Below are positions 13-17,654 of a stretch of 64,000 nucleotides of DNA, one piece after another. How positions within the stretch are numbered: the first letter of the stretch is position 1; every line of letters starts with the position of its first letter. The notes beneath the pieces were generated by a model. It made no database searches. It was given only the letters and a program-made list of their open reading frames with translations, and was not told where the DNA came from. The position numbers and the translations under genes were made by a program. This DNA comes from Halohasta salina (GTDB lineage Archaea; Halobacteriota; Halobacteria; Halobacteriales; Haloferacaceae), in the NCBI RefSeq assembly GCF_024178165.1, contig NZ_JAMZIE010000004.1, positions 186,001 to 250,000 of the forward strand. The letters are read 5' to 3'.

Positions 13-1722
13 CTACAGCCGCTGGCGGACCTCGGCGAGCGTATCGGCCGCAAGCATGGCGTCGGCGAGTTCGGCAGCGGCCTCGGTGTCGACCTCGCGG
101 ATCGCCGTCTTCACATCGGGGATCGTGACGGCGCTCATGCTGAGTTCGTCGAGACCCAGTCCGACCAGCAGTTCCGTGAGGTCGGGATCGCCGGCCATCT
201 CGCCGCACATCCCGACCCACGCGTCGCCCGCGTGGCCCGCGGTGACGGTGCGGTCGATCGCCCGGAGGACCGCCGGGGCCAGCGGGTCCTGATACTCGCT
301 CATCCGATCGAGGTCGCGCTGGGCGCTCTGGATGTACTGGGTAAGGTCGTTGGTGCCGATCGAGAGGAAATCCACGCGCTCGGCGAAGGCGTCGGCCAGA
401 TACGTCGACGCTGGCGTCTCGACCATCACGCCGAGTTCGGGGATGGCGTAGTCGACACCCTCGTCGTCGAGATCGTCGGCGACACTCTCGACCTGTTCGA
501 GGGCGGCCTCCAGTTCCTCGACCGTCGAGACCAGCGGGAACATCACCGCGAGTCCGGCCCCGGCGTCGGTCGCGGCGACACGCAGGAGCGCCCGGAGTTG
601 GGTCTCGAAGAGGTCGGCATGCTCGTCCAGCGAGAGGCGAATGCCGCGTGCGCCGAGGAAGCCGTTTTCGTCGGGATCGAGCCCCAGATAGTCGATGGGC
701 TTGTCGCCACCGACATCCAGCGTGCGGACGACGATCCGCGGCTCGCCGTCGCCCGCGACGCCCGCCGCGAAGGCCTCACAGACCTCGTGGTAGGCCGCGT
801 ACTGCTCGTCCTCGTCGGGCGCGGCGGCGCGGTCCTGAAAGAGGAACTCGGTCCGGAAGAGACCGACACCATCGGCCCCGCGGTCGACCGCCGGGCCGGC
901 CTCGGCGGGTGTCCCGAGGTTGGCCGCGATCTCGACCGACCGGCCGTCGGCGGTTGCGACCGACTCCTCGACGACGGCGGTCTGGGTCGACTCGGCGGCC
1001 CGCTCGCGGGTCGCCGCGTCGGGATCGGCGATCACGACGCCGTCCTCGCCGTCGACGACGACGTCGGTGCCGTCGTCGACCGCGTCGAGTTCGTCACCGA
1101 CACCGACGACCGCCGGAATCCCCAGCGAGCGGGCGATGATCGCGGCGTGAGCGGTCCGGCCGCCCTCCATCGTGGCGATCCCCGTAATCGAGTCGGGATC
1201 GAGTTGGGCGGTGTCGCTCGGGGTGAGCAGTTCGGCCAACACGACCGACCCATCGGGCAGCGAGCCGAGGTCGGTGCGTTCGGTGCCGGTCAGCAGCCGG
1301 AGCAGGCGGTCCCGGATGTCCCGGAGGTCGTCGGCCCGCTCGGCCATCATCCCGTCCATCCCCGCGAACTGCTCGATGGGCCCCGCGAAGGCCTCTTTCA
1401 CCGCGTGGGGAGCCGGCAGTCCCTCCTCGAGGGCTTCCTCGACCCCGCTTTCGATCTGTGGATCTTCGAGGAACTTGAGGTGGGCGTCGAACACTGCTGC
1501 TTCATCCTCGCCCACGCGCTCGCGCGTCGACTCGCGTTCGGCCTCCAGTTCGGCGCGGGCGTCGGCCTGCGCGGCGTCGAACCGCTCGCGCTCGGCGACG
1601 GGGTCGACGCCGTCGACCGGCGGCTCCTCGAGGTCGGTCACGTCGGTCGGGCGGTACCACACCGCCGTGCCGACGCCGAGCGTCGGCGTGGCACCGATCC
1701 CCTCGAAGCGGCGCTCTGTCAC
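13..1722 (-). CDS. ptsI: PEP-protein phosphotransferase (PTS enzyme I)
   Basis: Cytoplasmic enzyme I of the phosphotransferase system: it takes phosphate from PEP onto a histidine and passes it to HPr. The 569-residue length is the family norm. Seen directly: an N-terminal HPr-binding helical region, the swivel motif GGRTAHAAIIAR with the phosphorylated His near residue 192, then the PEP-binding TIM barrel with RTEFLF (about 290), GGDKP (about 340), IGTNDLTQY (about 455) and CGEMAGDP (about 505). Its ATG overlaps the HPr stop in an ATGA, so the two are translationally coupled. No EIIA/B/C components lie in this window, so the sugar or dihydroxyacetone target is elsewhere; the nearby glycerol genes make a dihydroxyacetone route plausible but unproven. 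Confidence 0.95.
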   Translation of the reverse strand: MTERRFEGIGATPTLGVGTAVWYRPTDVTDLEEPPVDGVDPVAERERFDAAQADARAELEAERESTRERVGEDEAAVFDAHLKFLEDPQIESGVEEALEEGLPAPHAVKEAFAGPIEQFAGMDGMMAERADDLRDIRDRLLRLLTGTERTDLGSLPDGSVVLAELLTPSDTAQLDPDSITGIATMEGGRTAHAAIIARSLGIPAVVGVGDELDAVDDGTDVVVDGEDGVVIADPDAATRERAAESTQTAVVEESVATADGRSVEIAANLGTPAEAGPAVDRGADGVGLFRTEFLFQDRAAAPDEDEQYAAYHEVCEAFAAGVAGDGEPRIVVRTLDVGGDKPIDYLGLDPDENGFLGARGIRLSLDEHADLFETQLRALLRVAATDAGAGLAVMFPLVSTVEELEAALEQVESVADDLDDEGVDYAIPELGVMVETPASTYLADAFAERVDFLSIGTNDLTQYIQSAQRDLDRMSEYQDPLAPAVLRAIDRTVTAGHAGDAWVGMCGEMAGDPDLTELLVGLGLDELSMSAVTIPDVKTAIREVDTEAAAELADAMLAADTLAEVRQRL

Positions 1723-2009
1723 GGCAACTCCATCTCGTCGAGTTCGTCTTCCGGCGTCGAGAGGATCACCTCGAGGGCGTCGAGGGCGGCCTCGGCGTCG
1801 GGGCCCTCGGCGACCAGCCGGACCTCGTCGCCGCCGCGGACGCCGAGCCCGGTGACCCCGAGCATGCTGTCGGCCGATACGGCCGGCCGGTTGCCGTCGA
1901 CGGCCGCGACGGTGACCTCGGCGTCGAACTCGCCGGCGGTCTCGACGAAGGTGGCTGCTGGGCGGGCGTGAAGTCCGTCGTCAGGGACGACTGTCAGGAT
2001 TCGTTCCAT
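1719..2009 (-). CDS. ptsH: HPr phosphocarrier protein
   Basis: Small cytoplasmic phosphocarrier that relays phosphate from enzyme I to PTS EIIA or to the DhaM-type dihydroxyacetone kinase. It has 96 residues with the signature GLHARPAATF, placing the phosphorylated histidine at residue 14. The region equivalent to bacterial Ser46 reads SADSMLGV, but no HPr kinase is visible here. It is the first gene of a two-gene operon with ptsI. The start at 2009 is supported by a TATA-like GTATAAAG centred 27 nt upstream, which predicts a leaderless transcript. Confidence 0.95.
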   Translation of the reverse strand: MERILTVVPDDGLHARPAATFVETAGEFDAEVTVAAVDGNRPAVSADSMLGVTGLGVRGGDEVRLVAEGPDAEAALDALEVILSTPEDELDEMELP

Positions 2010-2141: not shown

Positions 2142-4943
2142 CTACCGGCCGTTTCGGCTGTAGGAGTCGAGTTGGCTCTCGACCCGGTCGTTGAGGCGTT
2201 CGAGTTCGGTTTCGAGGTCGCCGTCGCGGATCTCGGGGTAGGCCTCGCCGACCAGCGTCCGGACCGTGCTGAAGGGGCCGATCCGCGCGCCGTTGGTCGC
2301 GGGGCTGTCCTTGCTTGAGAGTAGTTGTTCGATAGCGACCTCGTGGCCGGGGTTCTGCCGGAACCAGCCGTCGCGTTCGAGTTTGTCGATCCCGCCCTCG
2401 TGGACCGGCAGGTAGCCGGTCTTGCGGTGCCAGCGGGCCTGCTGTTCGGGCTGGGTGAGCCACGCGAGGAACTCGCCGGCGGCGTCGCGTTCGGCTTGGG
2501 TCGCCGAATCGGAGACCCACAGCGACGCCCCGCCGACGATCAGCCCTTGGCCAGCGCCGGGCGTCGGATGGCCGCTGATGCCGACATCGAAGTCGGCGGT
2601 GTCGGTGATGCCGCCGACCGACGACGAGGAGGCAATGACCATCGGCGCGGTTCCCTCGTAGAAGGCCTTTTTGGCCTTCCCACGGGCCTCCATGCCGGGG
2701 TTGTGGTAGAGTCCCTGCTCGTCGAGGTTCGTCCACCAGCCGTAGATCTCTTGGGCGGCCTCGCTGTCGAAGTAGGCCTCGTCCGGCGTTCCCGCCCGAC
2801 CGTTTTTCTTGTTGACGATCTCCTGGCCGGCGGTCGCAAACCACTGCTCGACGAACCACGAGTAGTTGGCGAAGGTGATCCCCTTCTCGGCGACCCCTTG
2901 GTCGACGAGCTGCTGGGCGGCATCGGTGACTTCCTCGAAGGTCGTCGGCGGGTTGTTCGGGTCGAGGCCGGCCTGTTGGAAGGCCGCCTCGTTGTAGCAG
3001 AGGACCGGCACCGAGGAGTTGAACGGCATCGAGTTGAGCCGACCGTTGGTCCGGTAGTAGCTCAACACGGGGTCGACGTAGTCACGCATGGAGACGCGGT
3101 TCGGCAACACGCCCTCGACGGGGGTGAACGCCCCGCTGTCCATCGCGCGGGCGGTCCCGATCTCGTAGATCTGTGCCAACACCGGGGGGCTGCCCTTCTC
3201 GGCGGCCGACAGCGTCGACTCGAGGGTGCCGCGGTAGCTCCCCTTCGAGGTGGCATTGATGTGGATGCCGTCGGCCTGTTCTTCGAACTCGCGGATCAGC
3301 TCTTCGAGCAACAGCCCCTTTTCGCCACCCATCGCGTGCCAGAACTCGACGGCGGTGACGTTCTCGCCGACGGTCGTCCGCGAGCGGGTCTCCCGGAGTT
3401 CGTAGGAGTCCAGCAGCGTCCCGAGGGTGTCGACCCGCTCGTCGAGGGTGGTCGCGCCGGTCGAGACCTCCGCCAGCGCCGTCGTCTGCTGTTGGGCCGC
3501 CGAGGCGGCGGTCTCGGAGCGTTCGGCCGTCTCGTCGGAGATCTCGCCGACGTCGTCGACCATCGCGGCGGCCTCCTGGAGGGACTCGGCCTGGCTGTCG
3601 GTCGCCTGACTGATCTCCTGGACGCCGACATTGGTCTCCTCGACGTCGTCGGCGATCTGCCGGAACGTCTCGACGGCACCCTCGATCGTCTCGACGCCGG
3701 CGTCGATCCGCTCGCGGGTCTCGTGCATCTCGTCGACCGTGGTATCGGCCTGCTCGCGGACGGTGGCGACCGACTCCTCGATGTCGCCGGCGGCCTCCTC
3801 GGCGTCCTCGGCGAGGCTCTTGACCTCGTCGGCGACGACGGCGAACCCTTCGCCCGCCTCACCCGCGCGGGCGGCCTCGATGGAGGCGTTGAGCGCGAGA
3901 ATGTTGGTCTGGCTGGCGACCTCGCCGATGAACTCCGCGATGTCCTCGATCTCGCCGATCAGGTCGTCGAGCTCCTCGGTGGCTTCGAGGGTTCGGCTGG
4001 TCCGGGTGTCGATCTCGTCGAGTTCGGCCAAGGCGTTGGTCGCCAACTCTCGGCCCTCTTCGCCGCGTTCGGCGGCGGTTTCGGAGGCTTGGGCGACCTC
4101 GTTGGCCGAGGAGGCGACCTCCTCGGTCGCCGCCGACAGCGACCGGATCTCGTCGGAGAGATCGTCGATCATCTCGTGTTGTTTGGTCGTGTCCTCCGAG
4201 ATGCCCGACACCGAGTGGCTGACTTCCTTGCTGGCCTGCTTGACCTCGTCGACCCGGCTGGTGACGCGCTCGGTCGCGCCGTCGACCTGATCGCCGAACT
4301 CGTCTACGGTCTGGATCGTGTCCTCGAACTCGTCGAGCATGCCGTTGAACGCGTTGGCCACCGCGGCTGCCTCGGGGTCGGCACGGTCGGTGTCCATCCG
4401 AACGGTGAGATCGCCGTCGGCACACTGCTCCATCGCCGAGACGAGCTGCGAGGAGAACCGCTCCCAGTCGAGATCCGACGAGTGAGAGCCAGTCCCGTCG
4501 GCCGAACCGGAGTAGTCGGAAGCGACCGGCTCGCCGCCGTCGGAGGCCGTCGGCGAACCCGAGGCGTCCGTCGTGGCAGCGACCGGCTCCACGTCGCGAT
4601 CAGTCGTCGACTCGGCGTCGGACTCGGTCGTCGGTGCCGGCTCCGCGTCGGCAGCGGCGTCGTGGTCCTTCGAAGCGTCGGGATCGTCAGCGGCGTCGGG
4701 GTCGACCGCCGCACTGCCGGCGTCGGGCGACAGCGGGTCGGCATCGGGGTCGGCGTCGTCGTCGCTGCCCCATCTCGAAAACGGACCGAAGAAACCGAGC
4801 ACCGAACCGACACCCAGCGAGGCGTCGGTCACACCGCTGGCGGCGACACAGAAGGCGATCAACCCAACGACAGCGGCACCGATTGTGAGACGGTACCATG
4901 GGACGTTCTCGATGGCAGGGCTGGCTCTCAGTCGGACGTGCAT
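2142..4943 (-). CDS. transducer (MCP) fused to C-terminal UgpB-like solute-binding domain
   Basis: A 933-residue chemotaxis-type transducer with an unusual layout. Seen: one clear TM helix at about residues 18-38 and a weaker hydrophobic stretch at about 42-56, an acidic Ser/Asp/Ala linker to about 155, a HAMP-like segment ([10 protein letters not shown]), a coiled-coil signalling region with the tip motif [20 protein letters not shown], and then, from about residue 525 to the end, a family 1 extracellular solute-binding domain ([28 protein letters not shown]). The solute-binding part resembles UgpB-type glycerol-3-phosphate or sugar binders, yet it follows the signalling hairpin and has no signal peptide, so it should lie in the cytoplasm if the hairpin does. 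The start at 4943 fits a TATA element 27 nt upstream. A role in sensing a three-carbon or sugar ligand is inferred from homology and the adjacent PTS and glycerol genes. Confidence 0.85.
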
Positions 4944-5019: not shown

Positions 5020-6189
5020 TCAGCCGGTTGCGGTGAGGTGATCGAACACGAGCGTGGGGAACCGTGGTTCGAGCCGCGAGGGCGGGCGGCCGACGTGGCT
5101 TTCGGCGTCGACTTTGAGCCGGCGGACGATCCCGGCCTCGGCGAGCTCGTAGAGGACGCGCTCGATGGTCGACCGGGAGAGTTCGATCCGGTCGCCGGCG
5201 ATGGCGTCGGCGGCCGCGCTCACCGAGTTGCGGTCGGCATCCGGGAGCGCTACCAGCCGGCCGAGGATCCGCTGGCGGCTCTCGGGTAGCGCCAACAGTC
5301 GGCCAAGCGAGACGCAGGGTTTGGGGACGGCGTCGGTGCCGGCCTCGAGGGCGTCGGCGTCGATCCGGTCGTGGCCGCGACGCTGGGCGTCGAGACCGGC
5401 GCTGAACAGCGCCGCCAGCGCGTCGTGGGCGTCGCCGTCGGCCCAGCCGGCGAGTTCACGGATCCGCTCGTGGCTGATCGCCGACCGTGTCAATCCGTCG
5501 GCCCCGCGGCTGGTGAGGATCTCGATCAGGGTGTGGCGGCGGTAGGTGTCACACCGGACCGTCTCGGGATCCTCCAGCGGGCCGGTGACCGCCGCCGGCT
5601 CCTGACGACCACAGAGCACCAGCGCGACCGACTCGCCGAACAGGGCGAACTGCTCGCAGACGGCCTCGGTCGACAGCGTCTCGGGCTCGCCGACGTGGTC
5701 GACGGCGACGACGACCGACCGGGAGCCGGGGGCGAGTCTGTCGGCCAGCCGGCGACGGATGGTGTCTGCGCTGACACCCTGTTTCGGTACCGGATCGGCC
5801 GTGAGGCTGTTGAGTACGGCATGCAGCAGCGCGAACCCGGTTTTGGCGACCCGGCCGTCGGTGTAGACGAAGGCGATGTCCGCTGTCGGTTCGGTGCGGG
5901 TCGTGGTGTAGATCCGGCCGTGGGCCCGGCCGATCAGCCGGTCGAGTTGGGCGAACAGCGAGCGGACGACGGCGGATTTACCGGTTCCTTTCGGCCCCCA
6001 GACGTAGCAGTCCGGCGGACAGCGATCCTCGAACGCCGGATCGATGGCGTCGAGCAGTTGCTCGATGACGAGCCCCCGACCGACCGGCTCGGTGGGGTGG
6101 GCGATCGGATTCAGGGCGTCGGATTCGAGCACCAGCCGCGGCTCGCTGTCGGGCTGCTGTCGGCGAACGATCCGCTCTTCGAGATTCAT
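5020..6189 (-). CDS. divergent Orc1/Cdc6-family AAA+ ATPase
   Basis: Member of the archaeal Orc1/Cdc6 initiator family, 389 residues. Seen: the typical N-terminal lead (MNLEERIVRR), a Walker A GPKGTGKSA near residue 72, and a C-terminal winged-helix region ending with RPPSRLEPRFP. The Walker B position reads VVVAVDHVGE, so the usual Asp-Glu pair is Asp-His, and the sensor 1 segment LVLCGRQE is also atypical. It may therefore bind ATP without normal hydrolysis. I chose the ATG at 6189 rather than an upstream in-frame ATG because homologues begin with this lead and a T-rich TATA-like element lies about 27 nt upstream. Adjacent intergenic DNA is too short for an origin with ORB repeats, so it is probably an accessory paralogue. 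Confidence 0.8.
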   Translation of the reverse strand: MNLEERIVRRQQPDSEPRLVLESDALNPIAHPTEPVGRGLVIEQLLDAIDPAFEDRCPPDCYVWGPKGTGKSAVVRSLFAQLDRLIGRAHGRIYTTTRTEPTADIAFVYTDGRVAKTGFALLHAVLNSLTADPVPKQGVSADTIRRRLADRLAPGSRSVVVAVDHVGEPETLSTEAVCEQFALFGESVALVLCGRQEPAAVTGPLEDPETVRCDTYRRHTLIEILTSRGADGLTRSAISHERIRELAGWADGDAHDALAALFSAGLDAQRRGHDRIDADALEAGTDAVPKPCVSLGRLLALPESRQRILGRLVALPDADRNSVSAAADAIAGDRIELSRSTIERVLYELAEAGIVRRLKVDAESHVGRPPSRLEPRFPTLVFDHLTATG

Positions 6190-6206
6190 TGGTGTCTCTC
6201 GTGTAT

Positions 6207-6250
6207 TAAAAAACGCAAACCGCCTCAACAACCGTCCGCCGAGCGGACGG
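6207..6250 (-). terminator. hairpin plus T-tract after the glpK-permease operon
   Basis: A perfect 8-bp inverted repeat (CCGTCCGC at 6232-6239, GCGGACGG at 6243-6250, 3-nt loop) is followed on the minus strand by TTTTTT at about 6207-6212. It sits just downstream of the permease gene ending at 6310. It resembles an intrinsic terminator; the T-tract may double as the TATA element of the Orc gene. Inference from structure. Confidence 0.5.
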
Positions 6251-6309: not shown

Positions 6310-7299
6310 TTAGAGGCCGAGCGCGCTGATCGGGGCCCAGAAGGTGGTCCCCAGGACGCCGGCGGCCGTCAGGACGGCCGACAGCAGGCCGGACATGAAG
6401 ATGCCGAACGCCGGCGGGTCAACGTGGGTCTTGCCGTGCATGTAGAACACACGGTTACAGACCTCACCCATCGTTGCGCCGAAGGCTCCGAAGAGCCCAC
6501 CGACGATCAACACGAGCGCCGGGCTGTAGCCGGCAGCCTGTGCGCCGAGTGCACCGACTGCGCCGGGCAGCGTGATGTGGTGGGTGACCGGGATGTTGTC
6601 GACACCGGCCTGCAGGAACACCAGGCTGGCCGCGCTGATACCGAAGCCGATCAGCGGGCTACCGGTGGCCTGGAACGCGAAGGCACCGAGGATACCGCCG
6701 ATCACACCGATGAGGGCGACGTTACCCCATTTGTACTGCCACGGCAGCCAGATGCCGGGCGCTTCGTCCTCGTCGCGCTCCCACGGGCCGACGTCGAACA
6801 TGCCGCTACCGGTGATCTCGCCGATGACGCTGTAGCCGAAGGCAACGCGGTGGAGCAGCGCCGAGACGAACACCATCAGCGCGATGTTGTCGGTCGGGAT
6901 CCCGATCGTGCGACCGAGTTCCGTGCCGGCAAAGCCGATGAGGCCGAAGAGCCCACCGACCATCAGCACGTCGGTGTGGTGGGTCCCTGCGGCCCACAGG
7001 ATGTTCTTTCCGTCGTCGATGTAGCCCTGCTTGGCTGCGTAGGCGGCTGCGGCCGCACCGGCTGCGAACGAAATGTGCGGACCGAACACCGGACCGAAGC
7101 CGAGGAGACCGGTGAAGCCGGTGGCGGTCAGCGAGGCTTCACCAGCGCCCTCGAGACCGAGTGCGCCTGCTGCCTCGCCGGCGATGACCATGAAGCCGGT
7201 GAAGATGAACGCCGGCAGAGCACCGATCGCCGCACCGAACGCGCCGCCCGCGAACGACGCGATCCAGAACGTCGGATCAGTGAGTGCTTCCGTTACCAT
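6310..7299 (-). CDS. polytopic membrane protein, putative glycerol permease (GlpX-type of haloarchaea)
   Basis: A 329-residue, Gly/Ala-rich membrane protein with roughly 8 to 9 predicted hydrophobic helices and short loops; it has no NPA boxes, so it is not an aquaglyceroporin. It starts 2 bp after the glycerol kinase stop, so the two are cotranscribed. In Haloferax volcanii a protein of this kind follows glpK and has been proposed as the glycerol facilitator, which is the basis for the call. Conserved-looking polar motifs within the helices include GTHHTD and VTHHITLPG. The upstream amber codon in glpK could lower its expression by polarity. Substrate is inferred from context only. The name should not be confused with bacterial GlpX fructose bisphosphatase. 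Confidence 0.7.
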   Translation of the reverse strand: MVTEALTDPTFWIASFAGGAFGAAIGALPAFIFTGFMVIAGEAAGALGLEGAGEASLTATGFTGLLGFGPVFGPHISFAAGAAAAAYAAKQGYIDDGKNILWAAGTHHTDVLMVGGLFGLIGFAGTELGRTIGIPTDNIALMVFVSALLHRVAFGYSVIGEITGSGMFDVGPWERDEDEAPGIWLPWQYKWGNVALIGVIGGILGAFAFQATGSPLIGFGISAASLVFLQAGVDNIPVTHHITLPGAVGALGAQAAGYSPALVLIVGGLFGAFGATMGEVCNRVFYMHGKTHVDPPAFGIFMSGLLSAVLTAAGVLGTTFWAPISALGL

Positions 7300-7301
7300 C
7301 G

Positions 7302-8837
7302 TTACTCGCCCCCGTCACGAGCCCAGTCCTCGGCTCGGGCGACGGCGTCCTTCCAGCGGTCGTAGTTGACTTCGATGTCGGCGTCCTCGTCGACAGGGAA
7401 GCTGCGGTCGATCTGCCAGTTGTCGCGGAGTTCGTCGACGGTGTCCCAGTAACCGACGGCGAGCCCGGCGGCGTAGGCCGATCCCAGTGCCGTGGTCTCG
7501 TCGACGACCGGACGGACGATCTCCGTACCGATGATGTTCGACTGGAGCTGACAGAGGAAGTTGTTCTTGACTGCACCGCCGTCGACGCGGAGGCTCGACA
7601 GATCGATGTCGGCGTCTTCGACCATTGCCTCGGCGACGTCCTTCGTCTGGTAGGCGATGGACTCGAGGGTCGCGCGAACGACGTGTTCGCGTCGGGTACC
7701 ACGCGTCATGCCGACGATGGTACCGCGTGCGCGCTGATCCCAGTGGGGGGCACCGAGACCGGTGAAGGCGGGCACGACGTAGACGCCGTCCGTGGAGTCG
7801 ACGCTGCGTGCGAGACTCTCGGATTCGGCGGCGTCCTCGATCAGGGTCATGTCTTCGAGCCACTCGATGGCCGCGCCAGTGATGAAGATGGCACCCTCGA
7901 GGGCGTACTGGACCGGCTCACCCGAGCGCTAGAAGCCGATCGTCGTCAGCAGGCCGTGATCCGAAGGAACGGCCTCGTTGCCGGTGTTCATCAGCATGAA
8001 CGAACCGGTACCGTAGGTGTTCTTGGCGTCGCCTGCGTCGAAACAGGTCTGGCCGAAGAGGGCTGCCTGCTGGTCACCGAGCGCACCCGCGACGGGCACT
8101 TCGGCACCGAGGAAGCCGTCCGGATCGGTGGAACCGTAGGTCTCGTCGTCGGAGGACGGACGGACTTCCGGCACCATCGCCTTGGGCACGTTGAACAGGT
8201 CCAGCAGTTCGTCGTCCCATTCGAGCTCGCGGATGTTGTACAGCATCGTCCGCGAGGCGTTCGAGACGTCCGTGATGTGGTTGCCGGTGAGGTTGTAGAT
8301 GACCCACGTGTCGATCGTCCCCATCAGGAGCTCGCCTTCCTCGGCGCGGTCCCGAACGTCCTGCGGTCGGGATCGCTGGAGCTTGATCGGGTCGGCGTTG
8401 TCGAGGATCCACTCGGTTTTCGTCGCCGAGAAGTAGGCGTCACATTCGAGACCCGTCTTCTCTCGGATCTCTTCGACCTTGCCCATCTCCTGGATCTCTT
8501 CGACACGGTCGGTGGTACGGCGGTCCTGCCAGACCAGCGCGTTGTGGACTGGTTTGCCGGTCTCGGCGTCCCACACGATCGTGGTCTCTCGCTGGTTCGT
8601 GATGCCGATGGCCTCGAGCTGCTCGGCGTCGAGGTCGGCGTCGTCCAGCGCCTGATTGATGACCGCTTTCGTGTTCTCCCAGATCTCCATCGGGTCGTGC
8701 TCGACCCAACCGGGCTCCGGATAGATCTGCTCGTGTTTCTCGTAGGCGTTTGCGATGACGTTACCACCATGGTCGAAGACCATGAACCGCGTTCCTGTGG
8801 TCCCTTGATCGATGGAACCGACGTATGTGTCTGACAT
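7302..8837 (-). pseudogene. glpK: glycerol kinase interrupted by one in-frame amber codon
   Basis: ATP-dependent glycerol kinase (glycerol to sn-glycerol-3-phosphate), first step of glycerol use in halophiles. The frame from the ATG at 8837 runs 302 residues to a TAG at 7929-7931, then continues in the same frame for 208 more residues to the normal stop, giving the usual total of about 511. The first part holds the N-terminal SIDQGTTGTRF nucleotide site and GALGDQQAALFGQ with the catalytic Asp; the second has [13 protein letters not shown] and the C-terminal FGGY domain. The residue before the amber is the F of TTIGF and relatives have Gln next, so a single CAG to TAG transition explains it. 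No frameshift is seen. It is either a recent nonsense mutation, a sequence error or a read-through codon. Start supported by a TATA element at 8921-8930. Confidence 0.9.
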
Positions 8838-9088: not shown

Positions 9089-9110
9089 AGTGCAAAACCC
9101 AACTGAACGG

Positions 9111-10853
9111 ATGAGTAACAAGCCACACGTTGTCGTCATCGGGGGCGGTTCCACGGGGTGCGGGATCGCACGCGACCTCTCTATGCGCGGGGTCGACGTC
9201 ACGCTCGTCGAGCAGGGGAACCTGACCCACGGGACGACAGGACGAATGCACGGACTGCTCCACAGCGGCGGCCGGTACGCCGTTGCGGACCAGATTGCTG
9301 CCGAAGAGTGTATCGACGAAAACCGAATTCTACGGGATATCGCCAGCCACTGTGTCGAGATGACCGGTGGGCTGTTCGTCAAGCGACCCGAGGACACCGA
9401 GGAGTACTTCCAGAAGAAACTGGAGGGCTGCAAGGAGTGCAACATTCCCGCCGAGGTGTTGTCGGCCGAAGAGGCCCGCGAGATCGAGCCGTACCTCGCC
9501 AAGGATATCGACAAGGCGATCAAAGTGCCCGACGGCGCGATCGACCCCTTCCGGCTCTGTGTCGCCAACGCCGCCAGCGCCGAGGAACACGGCGCGCGCA
9601 TCGAGACGCACGCACCGGTCGTCGACCTCCTCACGGAGGACGGCGAGGTCGTCGGCGTCGAGGTCGAACACGAGACGGGGCCCGGCAAGCGCGTCCACCG
9701 CGAGCCGGGCACGCGCGAGAAGATTCGCGCCGACTACGTGGTCAACGCGACCGGCGCGTGGGCCGGACAGATCGGCGAGATGGCCGGCCTCGAACAGGAA
9801 ATCGAGGTCCGACCCGGTAAAGGCGTCATGACGATCATGAACACCCGACAGGTCGACACCGTCATCAACCGGTGTAAGCCGAAGGGTGACGCCGACATCG
9901 TCGTCCCACACGAGACGACGGCGATTCTGGGGACGACCGATATCGAGGTCGACGATCCCGAGGACTACCCCGAAGAGCAGTGGGAAGTCGACCTGATGAT
10001 CGACACCCTCTCGGAGCTGGTGCCGATCCTCAAGGAAGCCCGAACGATTCGCTCCTTCTGGGGTGTCCGGCCGCTGTACGAGCCGCCGGAGACCGGCACC
10101 AGCGACTCGACGGACATCACCCGCCGGTACTTCCTGCTCGACCACGAGGAACGGGACAACGTCAAGGGGATGACGTCCATCGTCGGCGGGAAGTTCACGA
10201 CCTACCGACTGATGGCCGAGGAGATCTCCGACCACGTCTGCGAGAAGTTCGACATCGACGCCGAGTGTCGCACCGCGGACGTGCCGCTGCCCGGCAGCGA
10301 TGACTTCTCGGTGCTCGACGACTACATGGACGAGTACGGGATCCGCTCGCCGATCGGTCGACGGAGCACCCAGCGGCTCGGCTCCCGCACCGACGAAGTA
10401 CTGGACTACGACGGCCCGAACCCGACGGTCTGTGAGTGTGAAGCCGTCACGCGTGCGGAGATCCAAGACAGCATCGAGAGCGCCGGCTCGGACCTCAACG
10501 CGACGCGGATCCGGACCCGCGCCTCGATGGGTAACTGTCAGGGGGCGTTCTGTACCCACCGGATGGCCGCCGAACTGTACGACGAGTACGACGCCGACAT
10601 CGCCTACGACGCCTGGGACGAACTGTATCAGGAACGCTGGAAGGGCGAGCGCCACGCGATGTGGGGCACCCAACTCTCGCAGGCGGCACTGAAGTACTCG
10701 CTGCACGCGACGACGATGAACCGCGACAAGGACGCCGCGACCACCGACAGCGTGGTCGACTTTTCGGCCTTCGACAGCGGGGCGACCGCCGGTGGCGCCG
10801 GCGGCACCGCCAGCACGGCCGCCACCGACGGCGGGCGAACGGGGGATGACTGA
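9111..10853 (+). CDS. glpA: anaerobic-type glycerol-3-phosphate dehydrogenase subunit A
   Basis: FAD-dependent catalytic subunit that oxidises sn-glycerol-3-phosphate to dihydroxyacetone phosphate, passing electrons to the GlpB/GlpC membrane-associated partners and then to quinone. Seen: the N-terminal FAD-binding GGGSTGCG, the DAO fold with [28 protein letters not shown] near 350, and a C-terminal BFD-like [2Fe-2S] domain with VCECEAVT and MGNCQGAFC. The last 40 residues are a Gly/Ala/Thr low-complexity tail. First gene of glpABC, with only 2 bp before glpB. The start at 9111 is preferred to the GTG at 9090 because of TATA spacing. This is the haloarchaeal route for glycerol from Dunaliella-type algae. 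Confidence 0.95.
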
Positions 10854-10855
10854 CC

Positions 10856-12154
10856 GTGGCGATCCGTGAGGACGTGATCGTGATCGGCGGCGGCCTGGCC
10901 GGCTCGGTCGCGGCCATCGAGGCCGCAGAGACCGGCGCGTCGGTCCGACTGGTGACCTACAAGAAGTCGACGCTCCGCCATGCCAGCGGGCTGATCGACG
11001 TACTGGGGTATGCCGACGGCGACGATCCGGTGGTCGACCCCTTCGCCGAGCTCGACGACCTGCCGGCCGACCACCCGTACGCAATCGCCGGCGAGGCGGC
11101 GGTCCGCGACGGATTGGCTCGCTTCGACGAGATCACCGGCGAGACCTATCAGGGCAGCCATACCGACACCAACGCCCTGATCCCGACGTTCAGCGGCGCG
11201 GTCAAGCCGACCGCCCGGTATCCCGCCGCGGCCGCCGCCGGGATCGCCAGCGACGACCGGCCGATGCTCGTGGTCGGCTTCGAGGAGATGACCGAGTACA
11301 ACGGCGAGATGCTCGCGGCCCACTTGGAGGCCGCAGGCGTCCCCTTCGACGTCGAGGGCGTCGAGTGTAACTTCCCCGGCGAGTACGTCAACGACTCCCG
11401 GGTGACCCGGTTCGCCAAACGGCTCGACATCGACGAGACCGTCGACTACGAGGGGCGATCGATGGGCGCACGCGAGGCGCTGGCCGCCGAAGTCGAACCC
11501 CACGTCGGCGACGCCGAACGCGTCGGCTTCCCGGCGTTCCTCGGCGACGACCACGCCGAGGCGGTCCGGACCGACCTCGAACGCCACCTCGGCGTCGACG
11601 TCTTCGAGATCCCGATGGGGCCGCCGAGCTACCCCGGCATGCGGCTCGAAGACACGCTCAAAGACGCGGTCGACGAGGCGGGCGTCCGCATCTCGGCCGG
11701 CAACCCCGTCGTCGGCTTCGAGGCCGACGGCGGCGAGATCCAGTCGGTCACCGTCGACAGCAAGGGCCGCGAGGTACCGTACCACGCCGACGAGTACGTG
11801 TTGGCGACCGGCGGCCTCGTTGGCAAGGGGATCGACTCCTCCCGTGAGGACGGCGTCGAAGAGCCCATCTTCGACTGCCACATCCCCCATCCGGAGGACC
11901 GCTACGAGTGGTTCGACGAGGAGGCCTTCGGCGATCAGCCGTTCGCCCACTTCGGAGTCGTCGTCGACGAGACGATGCGGCCGCTCGACGCGACCGACGC
12001 CCCCGAGTTCGACAACCTCCGGGCGGCGGGCGCGGTGGTCGGCGGCGCGGATACGGTCGCCGAGAAGTCCCAGAGCGGCGTCTCGCTGGCGACAGCGGTC
12101 GTCGCTGGGGAGCAGGCCGGCAAACAGGCAGCGAAACACGAGGTGAGCCAATGA
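10856..12154 (+). CDS. glpB: glycerol-3-phosphate dehydrogenase subunit B
   Basis: Second flavoprotein subunit of the GlpABC complex, thought to link GlpA with the iron-sulfur subunit. It has 432 residues, starts with GTG, and opens with the FAD-binding motif VIGGGLAGSVAAIEAA. Later motifs seen are YVLATGGLVGKG and FGVVVDE near the C-terminus, followed by the final FAD contact region around GAVVGGADTVAEKSQSGVSL. The stop overlaps the glpC start as ATGA, so translation is coupled. No damage is visible. Confidence 0.93.
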   Translation: MAIREDVIVIGGGLAGSVAAIEAAETGASVRLVTYKKSTLRHASGLIDVLGYADGDDPVVDPFAELDDLPADHPYAIAGEAAVRDGLARFDEITGETYQGSHTDTNALIPTFSGAVKPTARYPAAAAAGIASDDRPMLVVGFEEMTEYNGEMLAAHLEAAGVPFDVEGVECNFPGEYVNDSRVTRFAKRLDIDETVDYEGRSMGAREALAAEVEPHVGDAERVGFPAFLGDDHAEAVRTDLERHLGVDVFEIPMGPPSYPGMRLEDTLKDAVDEAGVRISAGNPVVGFEADGGEIQSVTVDSKGREVPYHADEYVLATGGLVGKGIDSSREDGVEEPIFDCHIPHPEDRYEWFDEEAFGDQPFAHFGVVVDETMRPLDATDAPEFDNLRAAGAVVGGADTVAEKSQSGVSLATAVVAGEQAGKQAAKHEVSQ

Positions 12155-13455
12155 GCGACGCACAACAACCCAGCGATTTCGATTCGACAACGGTAGATGA
12201 GTTCGAGCCGGTCGACGTCTTCCCCTCCAGCGAGGATATGGACCTCCGGCCGGGTGCCGACAACTGTTATAAATGCACGAGCTGTGACACGTCCTGCCCG
12301 GTCGCGGAGGTCGACGAGGAGTTCCCCGGGCCGAAGTTCCAGGGTCCCGAACAGTGGCGGCTGAAACGTCACGAGGACGTCGACATCGACGACTCGATCC
12401 TCTCGTGTTCGAACTGTATGCGGTGTGACGACGCCTGTCCGTCGTCGGTGCCGCTCAGCCAGATGCACAACACCGCCCGCGGGGAGTACGTCGAAGAACA
12501 CATGGACAAGCTCTCCCGGGAGTACATCCGCAACCGCATGCTGGCCAACTACCGGACGCTGGCCTCCATCGGCAGCAAGATCCCGCGAATCTCGAACTTC
12601 TTCATGGGGCTGGGCATCACCAGCACCATCGGCGCGAAGATCATGGGACTGCCGACCGAGCGGGATATGCCCGAGTTCGCCACCGAGACCTTCCGGCAGT
12701 GGTTCAAGAAGCGCGGCGGCTCGAAGGTCAGCAACCCCGACAAGCAGGTCGCCTACTTCCACGGCTGTTACTCCAACTACAACACCCCAGAGGTCGGCAA
12801 GGCGATGGTCCGGGTCTTCGAGGAGTTCGGCTACGAAGTGCTGGTCCCGAAACAGCAGTGTTCGGGGACCCCGATGTTCGCAAACGGGATGCTGAAGGAC
12901 GCCCGCCGTGAGGCGGAAGTCAACGTCCGCGAACTCGGTAAGGCGATCGACAACGGAGCGGACGTGATCGCTTCCTGTACCTCCTGTTCGATGGCGCTCC
13001 GTCAGGAGTACCCCGAACTGTTCGACATCGACGGCGTCGAGGAGCTGTCGGAACACACCTACGAGGCCATGGAGTTCCTCCGCATCCACGAGGACGTTCA
13101 GGGTGCGATCCGGGAGTCGGAGGTCGACCCACAGGCCTTCGCCTACCACGCGCCGTGTCACGCACGGAATCAGGGACTGGATCGACAGGCCGTCGAACTG
13201 TTCCGCGAACTCGACGGCGCACATATCGAGGACGTCGGCGAGTCCTGCTCGGGCATCTCCGGGACCTACGGCTGGAAGTCCGAGAAGTACGAGACCTCGA
13301 TGAAGATCGGTGCCGAGATGTTCGACCACATGGAACACGCCGAGGGCGACGTCGGCATGACCGAGTGTCCCACCTGTGCGATGCAGATGAACCATGGGAC
13401 GGGCTACGAGATCCGCCACCCCCTCGAACTGCTCGAAGAAGCTCTCGTCAACTAG
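12151..13455 (+). CDS. glpC: glycerol-3-phosphate dehydrogenase iron-sulfur subunit C
   Basis: Iron-sulfur subunit that passes electrons from GlpA/B to the quinone pool at the membrane. It has 434 residues from the ATG at 12151. Two [4Fe-4S] clusters are visible, CYKCTSCDTSCPV near residue 40 and CSNCMRCDDACP near 88. Two cysteine-rich CCG-type domains follow, one with YFHGCYSNYNTPEVG and QCSGTPM, the other with HAPCHARNQG and ESCSGISGTYG. The C-terminus carries ECPTCAMQM. An upstream in-frame extension exists, but the ATGA overlap with glpB and family length decide the start. Last gene of the operon; no obvious terminator follows. Confidence 0.94.
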   Translation: MSDAQQPSDFDSTTVDEFEPVDVFPSSEDMDLRPGADNCYKCTSCDTSCPVAEVDEEFPGPKFQGPEQWRLKRHEDVDIDDSILSCSNCMRCDDACPSSVPLSQMHNTARGEYVEEHMDKLSREYIRNRMLANYRTLASIGSKIPRISNFFMGLGITSTIGAKIMGLPTERDMPEFATETFRQWFKKRGGSKVSNPDKQVAYFHGCYSNYNTPEVGKAMVRVFEEFGYEVLVPKQQCSGTPMFANGMLKDARREAEVNVRELGKAIDNGADVIASCTSCSMALRQEYPELFDIDGVEELSEHTYEAMEFLRIHEDVQGAIRESEVDPQAFAYHAPCHARNQGLDRQAVELFRELDGAHIEDVGESCSGISGTYGWKSEKYETSMKIGAEMFDHMEHAEGDVGMTECPTCAMQMNHGTGYEIRHPLELLEEALVN

Positions 13456-14949: not shown

Positions 14950-16218
14950 ATGACACACCAGACAACCGTACTCGTCATCGGCGGTGGCGGAACCGGCGTC
15001 GGAACTGCACGCGATCTGGCCGCCCGCGGCGTCGACGTCACGCTGGTCGAACGCGATGGACTGGGGGGTGGCACCACGGGGCGATCACACGGGCTGCTCC
15101 ACAGTGGGGCGCGGTACGCCGAGTCGGACCCCGAGGGCGCGGCCGAATGTATCGAGGAAAACCGGATCATCCGCGAGATCGCCGGCGAGGCGATCGGCGA
15201 CACCGGTGGGATCTTCGTCCAGTTGAGCGAGGACGATCCCGAGTACTTCGAGGCGAAACTCGAAGGCTGTGAGGAACACGGGATCCCGGCGGAGGTCATC
15301 GATGGTGACGAGGCTCGCGACCGCGTCCCGGAACTCTCCGAGGACGTCGAGCGGGCGATGGTCGTCCCCGACGGCGTGATCTACCCCTCGCGGCTGGTAG
15401 CGGCCAACGCCGCCAGCGCCGAGGAACACGGCGCGACGGTACTGACACACGCCCCTGTCGAGGCGATCACCGTCAGCGACGGGGCGATCACCAGCGTCGA
15501 GGTCGGCGGCGAGGCAAACGAGACGATCGAGCCGGAGTACGTCGTCAACGCGACGGGCGCGTGGGCCGGCGAGTGTGCGGCGATGGCCGGCATCGACGTC
15601 GAAATGCAGCCCACCAAGGGCGTGATGGTCGGCGTCGACTACGAGGGATTGGGCCCCGTGCTCAACCGGTGTCGGGTCCCCGACGACGGCGACATCATCA
15701 TCCCACACGAGAGTCAGGTCGTCCTCGGGACGACGAGCGTCGCGGTCGACGACCCCGACGACTACGAGGAAGAACAGTGGGAGATCGAGAAGATGTTCGA
15801 GGAGTGTGCCGCGATGTTGCCCGAACTCGACGGCCGTGAGGTCGCCCGTACCTACTGGGGCGTCCGGCCGCTGTACGCGCCCGACGAGGCGGGCCGCGGG
15901 AGCAAAGATTCAGGCAAAGGGGACGAACGCGGCATCTCGCGAGGGTTCTTCCTGCTGGACCACGAGCAAGACGGTGTCGAGAACTTCGCCAGCGTCGTCG
16001 GCGGCAAGCTGACGACCTACCGCATGATGGCCGAGGCCGTCGCCGACCACGTCGACGAGGTGCTGGGTGTCGGCGGCGAGTCGATCACCGCCGACGAGCA
16101 GTTGCCGGGAGCCAACGATCCCGACCGGCTCGACCAGTTCGTCGCCAAGTACAGCGCCCGTCAGCCGGCCGATATCGACGTCGTCGCCGACACCGGCGGC
16201 CAGGTAGCCGACGACTAA
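14950..16218 (+). CDS. second GlpA-like FAD-dependent glycerol-3-phosphate dehydrogenase, short form
   Basis: Paralogue of GlpA with 422 residues. It shares the N-terminal IGGGGTGVGTARDLAARG, the TTGRSHGLLHSGARYA segment, [16 protein letters not shown] and VVGGKLTTYRMMAEAVA. It ends soon after the last motif and lacks the C-terminal [2Fe-2S] BFD-like domain of the glpABC subunit. It may work alone with quinone or another acceptor, or act on a different hydroxyacid; neither is shown by sequence. No GlpB or GlpC partner follows; the next gene is a glycerate kinase. A near-copy of its last codons follows the stop (see repeat). Confidence 0.85.
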   Translation: MTHQTTVLVIGGGGTGVGTARDLAARGVDVTLVERDGLGGGTTGRSHGLLHSGARYAESDPEGAAECIEENRIIREIAGEAIGDTGGIFVQLSEDDPEYFEAKLEGCEEHGIPAEVIDGDEARDRVPELSEDVERAMVVPDGVIYPSRLVAANAASAEEHGATVLTHAPVEAITVSDGAITSVEVGGEANETIEPEYVVNATGAWAGECAAMAGIDVEMQPTKGVMVGVDYEGLGPVLNRCRVPDDGDIIIPHESQVVLGTTSVAVDDPDDYEEEQWEIEKMFEECAAMLPELDGREVARTYWGVRPLYAPDEAGRGSKDSGKGDERGISRGFFLLDHEQDGVENFASVVGGKLTTYRMMAEAVADHVDEVLGVGGESITADEQLPGANDPDRLDQFVAKYSARQPADIDVVADTGGQVADD

Positions 16219-16322: not shown

Positions 16323-17654
16323 ATGATCGACCAGCGCGAGGAACTCGAACGGTCGGCGGCACACAGGGTGGCCCTCGATGCGCTCACCGCGGGCATCGCG
16401 GCCGCCGATCCCGCCCGGCTGACGCGGGAGCGCGTCTCCGTCTCGGGGTCGAGACTCTCCGTCGGCGAATCGGCCGTTTCGCTCGACGACTACGAGACCC
16501 TCCGCGTCCTCGGCGGCGGGAAGGCTGCCGGCGTCGTCGCCGCCGAGTTGGAGGCGATCCTCGACGACCGACTCGACGGCGGGGTCGTCGTCACGAACGA
16601 ACCGGTCGACGCCGAACGGGTCGACCAACTGCCGGGTGACCACCCGGTGCCGGGAGCGTCGAGCCTGAAAAGTAGTCGGCGACTACTGTCGGCCGCGCGG
16701 GATGCGGGCGAAGAGACGCTGGTGCTGGCGGTGATTACCGGGGGCGGCAGCGCGCTGATGGCGGCTCCCGCCGAGGGGCTGTCGCTGGCGGATCTCCAGT
16801 CGACCACCCAGTCGCTGCTCGACAGCGGGGCGACGATCGACGAGATCAACGCCGTCCGCAAACACTGCTCGGCGATCAAGGGCGGGCAGTTGGCCGCGGC
16901 GACAGCGCCCGCCCGCGTCGAGTGTCTCCTCGTCAGCGACGTCGTCGGCAACGATCTCGGCACGATCGCCAGCGGACCGTTCGTCGGCGACGCCTCGACC
17001 TACGACGAGGCGCTGGCTGTCCTCGACCGCTACGACTGCGATGTACCGCAGGCGGTCCGGCGGCGGATCGAAGCGGGCGCAGCCGGCGAGATCGCGGAGA
17101 CACCCGGCCCCGACGATCCGGTCTTCGACCGAGTGTCGACCACGATTCTGGGCGACAACGCCGTCGCCCTCGAAGCGGCCGCCGAGGCGGCCCGCGAGGC
17201 GGGGTTCGAGCCACTGCTCCTCTCCTCGCGGATCCGCGGCGAGGCCCGGGAGGCCGCCAAAACGGGGATGGCGATCGCCGAAGAAATGCGGGCAACCGGC
17301 GAGCCACTCGACCCGCCCGCAGCGGTCGTCTCCGGCGGCGAGACGACCGTGACGGTTCGGGGCGACGGCACCGGCGGACCGAACCAGGAGTTCGCGCTGT
17401 CAGCGGCGCTCGAATGCGACGAGTCGGGGGTCGTGGTCGCTGCGATCGACACCGACGGGATCGACGGCCCGACCGACGCCGCCGGGGCGGTTGTCGACTG
17501 CGGGACCGTCGAAGACGGGGCGGCGGCCGCGGCGTTGGCCAACAACGACGCCTACAGTGTGCTGGAGGCGGCCGACGCGCTCGTTCGTACCGGACCGACG
17601 GGGACGAACGTCAACGACCTGCGGATCGTGGTCGTCCAACCCGACTCCGAGTAG
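16323..17654 (+). CDS. glycerate 2-kinase (MOFRL/DUF4147 family)
   Basis: Cytoplasmic kinase of the GckA/TtuD-like family that makes 2-phosphoglycerate from glycerate. 443 residues. Seen: GGGKAAGVVAAELE near residue 64, NEPVDAERVDQLPGDHPVP, the glycine-rich AVITGGGSALMAAPAEG near 140, NAVRKHCSAIKGGQLA, LLVSDVVGNDLGTIASGP, and the C-terminal MOFRL domain with GPNQEFALSAA, DTDGIDGPTDAAGAV and GPTGTNVNDL. A TATA-like ACTATTTT at 16291-16298 precedes the ATG by 27 nt. Its place beside glycerol-3-phosphate genes fits three-carbon catabolism. The family has been misannotated as hydroxypyruvate reductase. Confidence 0.88.
   Translation: MIDQREELERSAAHRVALDALTAGIAAADPARLTRERVSVSGSRLSVGESAVSLDDYETLRVLGGGKAAGVVAAELEAILDDRLDGGVVVTNEPVDAERVDQLPGDHPVPGASSLKSSRRLLSAARDAGEETLVLAVITGGGSALMAAPAEGLSLADLQSTTQSLLDSGATIDEINAVRKHCSAIKGGQLAAATAPARVECLLVSDVVGNDLGTIASGPFVGDASTYDEALAVLDRYDCDVPQAVRRRIEAGAAGEIAETPGPDDPVFDRVSTTILGDNAVALEAAAEAAREAGFEPLLLSSRIRGEAREAAKTGMAIAEEMRATGEPLDPPAAVVSGGETTVTVRGDGTGGPNQEFALSAALECDESGVVVAAIDTDGIDGPTDAAGAVVDCGTVEDGAAAAALANNDAYSVLEAADALVRTGPTGTNVNDLRIVVVQPDSE

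Follow-up and report, generated by a model that had tools for sequence, protein, structure and literature searches.

UgpB, the solute-binding protein of the Ugp ABC transporter, binds glycerol-1-phosphate (G1P) and glycerol-3-phosphate (G3P) alike in bacteria, with Trp188 as one of two tryptophans that clamp the glycerol phosphate; a GPC-binding relative is without this Trp clamp (PMC12718374). In Halobacterium salinarum, BasB and CosB are separate periplasmic-type binding proteins that copurify with membrane transducers, and Car (Htr11) is a cytoplasmic arginine transducer (PMC3579733). A 2022 survey describes class V archaeal chemoreceptors as cytoplasmic; some of these have their ligand domain at the C-terminus, and SBP_bac is one of the ligand domains counted for archaeal chemoreceptors (PMC9680633), so that the pairing of the two may already be tabulated there. 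A literature search, partial in coverage, found no description of a fused chemoreceptor-UgpB family.

The stretch of DNA analysed here (the window) comprises 64,000 nucleotides of Halohasta salina and contains a gene in which a chemoreceptor and a UgpB-type domain are encoded as a single polypeptide. Its features, in window positions, are as follows.

2142 to 4943, minus strand: whole fused chemoreceptor-UgpB gene, a single ORF from ATG to TAG encoding 933 aa
4779 to 4886, minus strand: N-terminal hydrophobic hairpin (residues 20-55, peaks at 20-38 and 43-55)
4479 to 4772, minus strand: acidic Asp/Ala-rich linker (residues 58-155), modelled at low confidence (pLDDT of about 30)
4323 to 4448, minus strand: HAMP domain (residues 166-207; Pfam PF00672), helix-break-helix in the model
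3408 to 4376, minus strand: signalling hairpin (helices 190-359 and 366-512; Pfam MCPsignal at 294-467)
3363 to 3407, minus strand: short linker between hairpin and binding domain (residues 513-527), without a hydrophobic stretch
2145 to 3362, minus strand: UgpB-type solute-binding domain (residues 528-933)

The protein therefore runs from the hydrophobic hairpin through HAMP and the signalling hairpin to a complete UgpB-type binding domain. The first-pass annotation of this DNA had described a chemoreceptor with a C-terminal UgpB-like domain, and this was borne out by the continuous frame, the Pfam domains and a structural relative. HAMP precedes the hairpin and matched PF00672 at 26.6 bits against a cut-off of 25, whilst residues 294-467 matched MCPsignal (PF00015) with an E value of 7.5e-41. 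The conserved hairpin tip is present ([29 protein letters not shown]), the tip itself reading [12 protein letters not shown] at residues 356-367, and motif-like sites near 270-278 and 480-489 resemble methylatable Glu/Gln pairs, methylation itself being invisible in sequence. For the binding domain, SBP_bac_8 matched at residues 548-849 (E 2.9e-41) and the best solved relative was E. coli UgpB (4aq4; residues 528-917, E 7.9e-62). An AF2 model of the last 414 residues had a mean pLDDT of 93.1 and a pTM of 0.89, and the modelled domain gave TM scores of 0.93 against E. coli UgpB 6x84 and 0.87 against 9LFF. The full-length model, of lower confidence (pLDDT 71.4), consisted of two long helices followed by a short linker and then the binding domain. 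Against the NCBIfam UgpB equivalog model the fused protein scored 248 bits, below the cut-off of 411, as did the exported haloarchaeal relatives.

A base change or an assembly error joining a transducer gene to a gene for an exported binding protein could in principle produce such a frame, and the annotation had named, as signs of this, relatives with separate transducer and binding protein and a signal peptide at the junction. GC3 stayed between 0.85 and 0.95 from residue 61 to the end and was unbroken across the junction, and codons 480-530 aligned at a fixed offset with two same-genus orthologues. Sought in other genomes, as the annotation had suggested, the binding domain was matched in 127 of 392 genomes of the haloarchaeal class, and about 66 of the 392 carried it in long frames, this fused count being of listed frames of at least 798 aa, counted by hand. 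Among 80 named loci, 51 were fused, comprising 43 recognized by the tip motif and 8 others that either had a divergent tip (frames of 811-869) or were truncated where the contig stops; the remainder comprised 18 with a Tat motif and lipobox and 11 that were unclassified. Fusions occurred in genera including Halohasta, Halonotius, Halorubrum, Haloarcula, Halomicrobium, Halapricum, Haloferax (larsenii, elongans, mucosum), Natrialba, Halobiforma, Halopiger and Natronocalculus, and in a phylum-wide sample, within the limit of a strict search, matches were confined to the same order. The distance from the tip to the first strand of the binding domain was 173-178 residues in every orthologue with the tip motif. 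The trees of the MCP half and the SBP half had 18 of 23 splits in common, against a mean of 0.2 after shuffling. Fused copies formed a grade beside an exported clade in the SBP tree, with a single clade not rejected (p-AU 0.175), and the MCP-half tree does not force one origin either; a single origin of the fusion is compatible with the trees rather than proven by them.

Gene neighbourhoods were compared for 40 loci, 25 fused and 15 separate, the window bringing the fused set to 26. All 15 free-standing UgpB relatives of haloarchaea carried a twin-arginine motif and a lipobox, with permease A and an ABC ATPase each found in 12 of the 15 neighbourhoods. No MCP was found in any of these 15, and those ABC permeases were absent from the neighbourhoods of all 25 fused genes. 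As the fused order is widespread and the free-standing relatives are without an adjacent MCP, the fusion is not accidental; with the largely congruent halves and the continuous GC3 also against it, a frameshift or assembly artefact was rejected and has in our estimation a negligible probability. At E 1e-3 the fused protein was the sole UgpB-like match in the window's own genome, and the H. salinarum plasmid relatives, among the matches listed, were all annotated as ABC substrate-binding proteins. In 8 of the 15 exported loci (including L069, L074, L077, L079, L081 and L084) the gene lay beside a GlpQ-like phosphodiesterase.

The annotation had further proposed one or two N-terminal transmembrane helices, no signal peptide ahead of the binding domain and an intracellular location for that domain. 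One clear hydrophobic segment is present at residues 20-38 (mean hydropathy 2.17), together with a shorter one at 43-55 (1.57 over 13 residues) that is not helical in the AF2 model, in a part of low confidence. The junction between hairpin and binding domain contained no hydrophobic segment in any of the 26 fused proteins, and the fused protein showed neither a Tat motif nor a lipobox nor a hydrophobic stretch ahead of the binding domain. In 22 fused proteins there was no 19-residue segment with a hydropathy of at least 1.5 before the binding domain, and among these L051 and L052 (Halonotius) keep a weaker hairpin and L059 is truncated at the edge of its contig. The N-terminal hydrophobic hairpin was found in the window's clade (Halohasta, Halonotius, Natronocalculus), most orthologues being without it, and of the 25 fused proteins whose N-termini are complete, 19 had no membrane segment. 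If a single N-terminal membrane helix exported the whole C-terminal part, the binding domain would lie outside the cell, and the window's protein does have only one strong hydrophobic segment, with Arg residues ahead of it. Set against this, a shorter second peak was seen in all six proteins checked from the membrane-bearing clade, and a hairpin with a conserved tip must meet cytoplasmic CheA and CheW; an external domain was rejected on the soluble orthologues and appears very improbable. Because the junction lacks an export signal throughout and most complete orthologues are soluble, the binding domain is very probably cytoplasmic, in agreement with the annotation; for the clade of the window itself, where the second arm is short, the assignment is carried over from the soluble orthologues. 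Sensor and output would both be cytoplasmic, with the sensor placed after the hairpin, an order that is read directly.

Ligand contacts were mapped onto the domain from UgpB structures.

2259 to 3236, minus strand: predicted ligand-contact span, mapped from UgpB-G1P/G3P structures (PMC12718374)

The predicted contacts are Y570, E594, S644, N693, W696, S772, G805, Y844 and R895, of which all except N693 are identical to bacterial UgpB and invariant in the 26 fused copies. Across these copies the pocket columns were 0.996 identical to the window's protein, compared with 0.579 for the whole domain, and none of 20,000 random nine-column sets reached the pocket identity. Every residue that forms hydrogen bonds to the glycerol hydroxyls or the phosphate is kept. 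The four exported relatives that diverge most have lost the residues at E88 and R393, so that the pocket is better preserved in the fused family than in some transporter proteins. The exception, N693, occupies the position of Trp188, which is Asn in 25 of 26 fused copies (Thr in one) and in 15 of 15 exported relatives. An Asn at the Trp188 position may let the pocket accommodate a glycerophosphodiester, a larger ligand, which N693 makes the main rival. For the exported relatives, the same Asn and the GlpQ-like neighbour suggest glycerophosphodiester uptake.

The genes around the fusion bear on the same question.

13 to 1722, minus strand: ptsI (PTS enzyme I), a neighbour
1719 to 2009, minus strand: ptsH (HPr), a neighbour
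5020 to 6231, minus strand: Orc1/Cdc6-like AAA ATPase, near the glpK/transducer cluster in both linked families
6310 to 7299, minus strand: membrane protein adjoining glpK, its position fitting a candidate glycerol transporter family (PMC3102087)
7302 to 8837, minus strand: glpK (FGGY glycerol kinase), with an in-frame TAG at 7929-7931
9090 to 13455, plus strand: glpA, glpB and glpC (anaerobic-type G3P dehydrogenase), diverging on the glpK side

The PTS and glycerol/G3P genes to which the annotation had pointed are thus present (PTS enzyme I, HPr, FGGY glycerol kinase, GlpA, GlpB and GlpC). On the minus strand the order is glpK, membrane protein, Orc1/Cdc6-like ATPase, transducer, ptsH and ptsI, with dhaK, dhaL and dhaM beyond ptsI. 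The same gene set recurs in genomes of the same family, and in Haloarcula-type genomes glpABC stands on one side and the series transducer, glpK, membrane protein and AAA ATPase on the other. The gene glpK lay near 8 of 25 fetched fused genes (9 of 26 with the window) compared with 1 of 15 exported genes, and 16 of 25 fetched fused loci had no glycerol or dihydroxyacetone gene nearby. The annotation's suggestion of a three-carbon ligand is consequently supported by pocket conservation and gene linkage rather than demonstrated. The same architecture and location could instead serve another phosphorylated ligand, whether a glycerophosphodiester, G1P from lipid turnover or a phosphosugar, as would be consistent with the replacement of Trp188, the GlpQ-like genes at exported loci, the binding of G1P and G3P alike by bacterial UgpB and the absence of the Trp clamp from its GPC-binding relative (PMC12718374), and the many fused loci without glycerol genes nearby. 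The linkage to glpK and glpABC in two families with different gene orders and the retention of every hydroxyl- and phosphate-bonding residue argue against it, and we regard it as unlikely, though a substantial possibility.

Several neighbouring genes had features of their own. The membrane protein at 6310-7299 had no Pfam or NCBIfam match; it fits an uncharacterized family whose members are predicted glycerol transporters (PMC3102087). The Orc1/Cdc6-like ATPase at 5020-6231 is perhaps a regulator of the glycerol genes and not a replication protein. The TAG within glpK may be either a nonsense change or a sequencing error; the gene is intact in same-genus relatives, and another, uninterrupted glpK copy with 84% identity to the query lies at G000:C19:474274-475800. 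On the plus strand, a second GlpA-like FAD oxidoreductase at 14950-16218 is followed by a MOFRL glycerate kinase-like gene at 16323-17654.

Given the bacterial precedent of PTS-coupled chemotaxis and the adjacency of ptsH and ptsI in the window's clade, the binding domain might be a docking or structural module, for example for the adjacent PTS proteins, giving PTS-coupled taxis with no small-molecule sensing. A module of this kind is difficult to reconcile with a pocket whose columns are conserved far above the level of the remaining domain, or with the presence of ptsH near only 6 of 25 fused genes, and we consider it improbable.

We propose that the transducer reports intracellular G3P to CheA via CheW and so gives rise to metabolism-dependent glycerol taxis, a reading that we hold to be somewhat probable, with ligand and behaviour both putative. 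Algae release glycerol, on which haloarchaea draw as an important source of carbon (PMC3102087). The window's own genome encodes CheA, two CheW proteins and ten archaellin-family matches. We infer the ligand, the direction of the response and the mechanical coupling as follows. A UgpB-type domain, lacking the Tat/lipoprotein signal that its relatives carry, is attached at constant spacing where the hairpin's C-terminal helix ends, near the HAMP end. Glycerol would enter the cell and be converted by glycerol kinase to G3P, the binding of which would close the two lobes of the domain; the lobe movement could then be passed to the C-terminal helix and change CheA activity through CheW, with the outcome that cells would remain where glycerol is being used. 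Archaeal membrane lipids are built on G1P, G3P being a catabolic intermediate (PMC12718374, PMC11962113), and G3P would therefore be a clean reporter of glycerol catabolism. Counting against the G3P reading are the interruption of glpK in the window, although a second intact copy exists, the 16 of 25 fused loci without nearby glycerol genes and the Asn at the Trp188 position.

As to its origin, a periplasmic-type protein may have lost its export signal and become joined to a chemoreceptor C-terminus, yielding an intracellular G3P sensor that steers by catabolic flux and not by external glycerol, the signal entering via the C-terminal helix; we consider the case for this evenly balanced. Haloarchaea export such binding proteins folded, via Tat. 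The domain must then already fold in the cytoplasm, and by our own reasoning loss of the signal could be enough. Such a history would show a route from uptake protein to internal sensor, and a chemoreceptor driven from the C-terminal end of its hairpin would, if true, be unusual. Our literature search found no description of a glycerol-phosphate receptor for haloarchaea, and a receptor responding to a catabolic intermediate would, if confirmed, allow metabolism-dependent taxis to be tested with a single ligand and a single gene.

Among known systems, class V receptors are, in the available part of the survey, likewise cytoplasmic with the ligand domain after the signalling domain; that part does not describe the UgpB family, its pocket, the glycerol gene linkage or the relation to exported UgpB (PMC9680633). 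Car (Htr11) is likewise a haloarchaeal transducer that senses a metabolic substrate in the cytoplasm, but its ligand differs and PMC3579733 mentions no UgpB-type domain for it, so that the two are set apart by description. BasB/BasT and CosB/CosT of H. salinarum share with the fused protein the principle of a solute-binding protein feeding a haloarchaeal transducer, whereas here the binding domain is covalently attached behind the hairpin, in a single polypeptide and without an export signal. UgpB of the Ugp ABC transporter (4AQ4, 9LFF) has the same fold and eight of the nine ligand contacts of the fused domain, which differs from it in having neither export signal nor permease partner, in standing behind a signalling hairpin and in carrying Asn in place of one clamp Trp.
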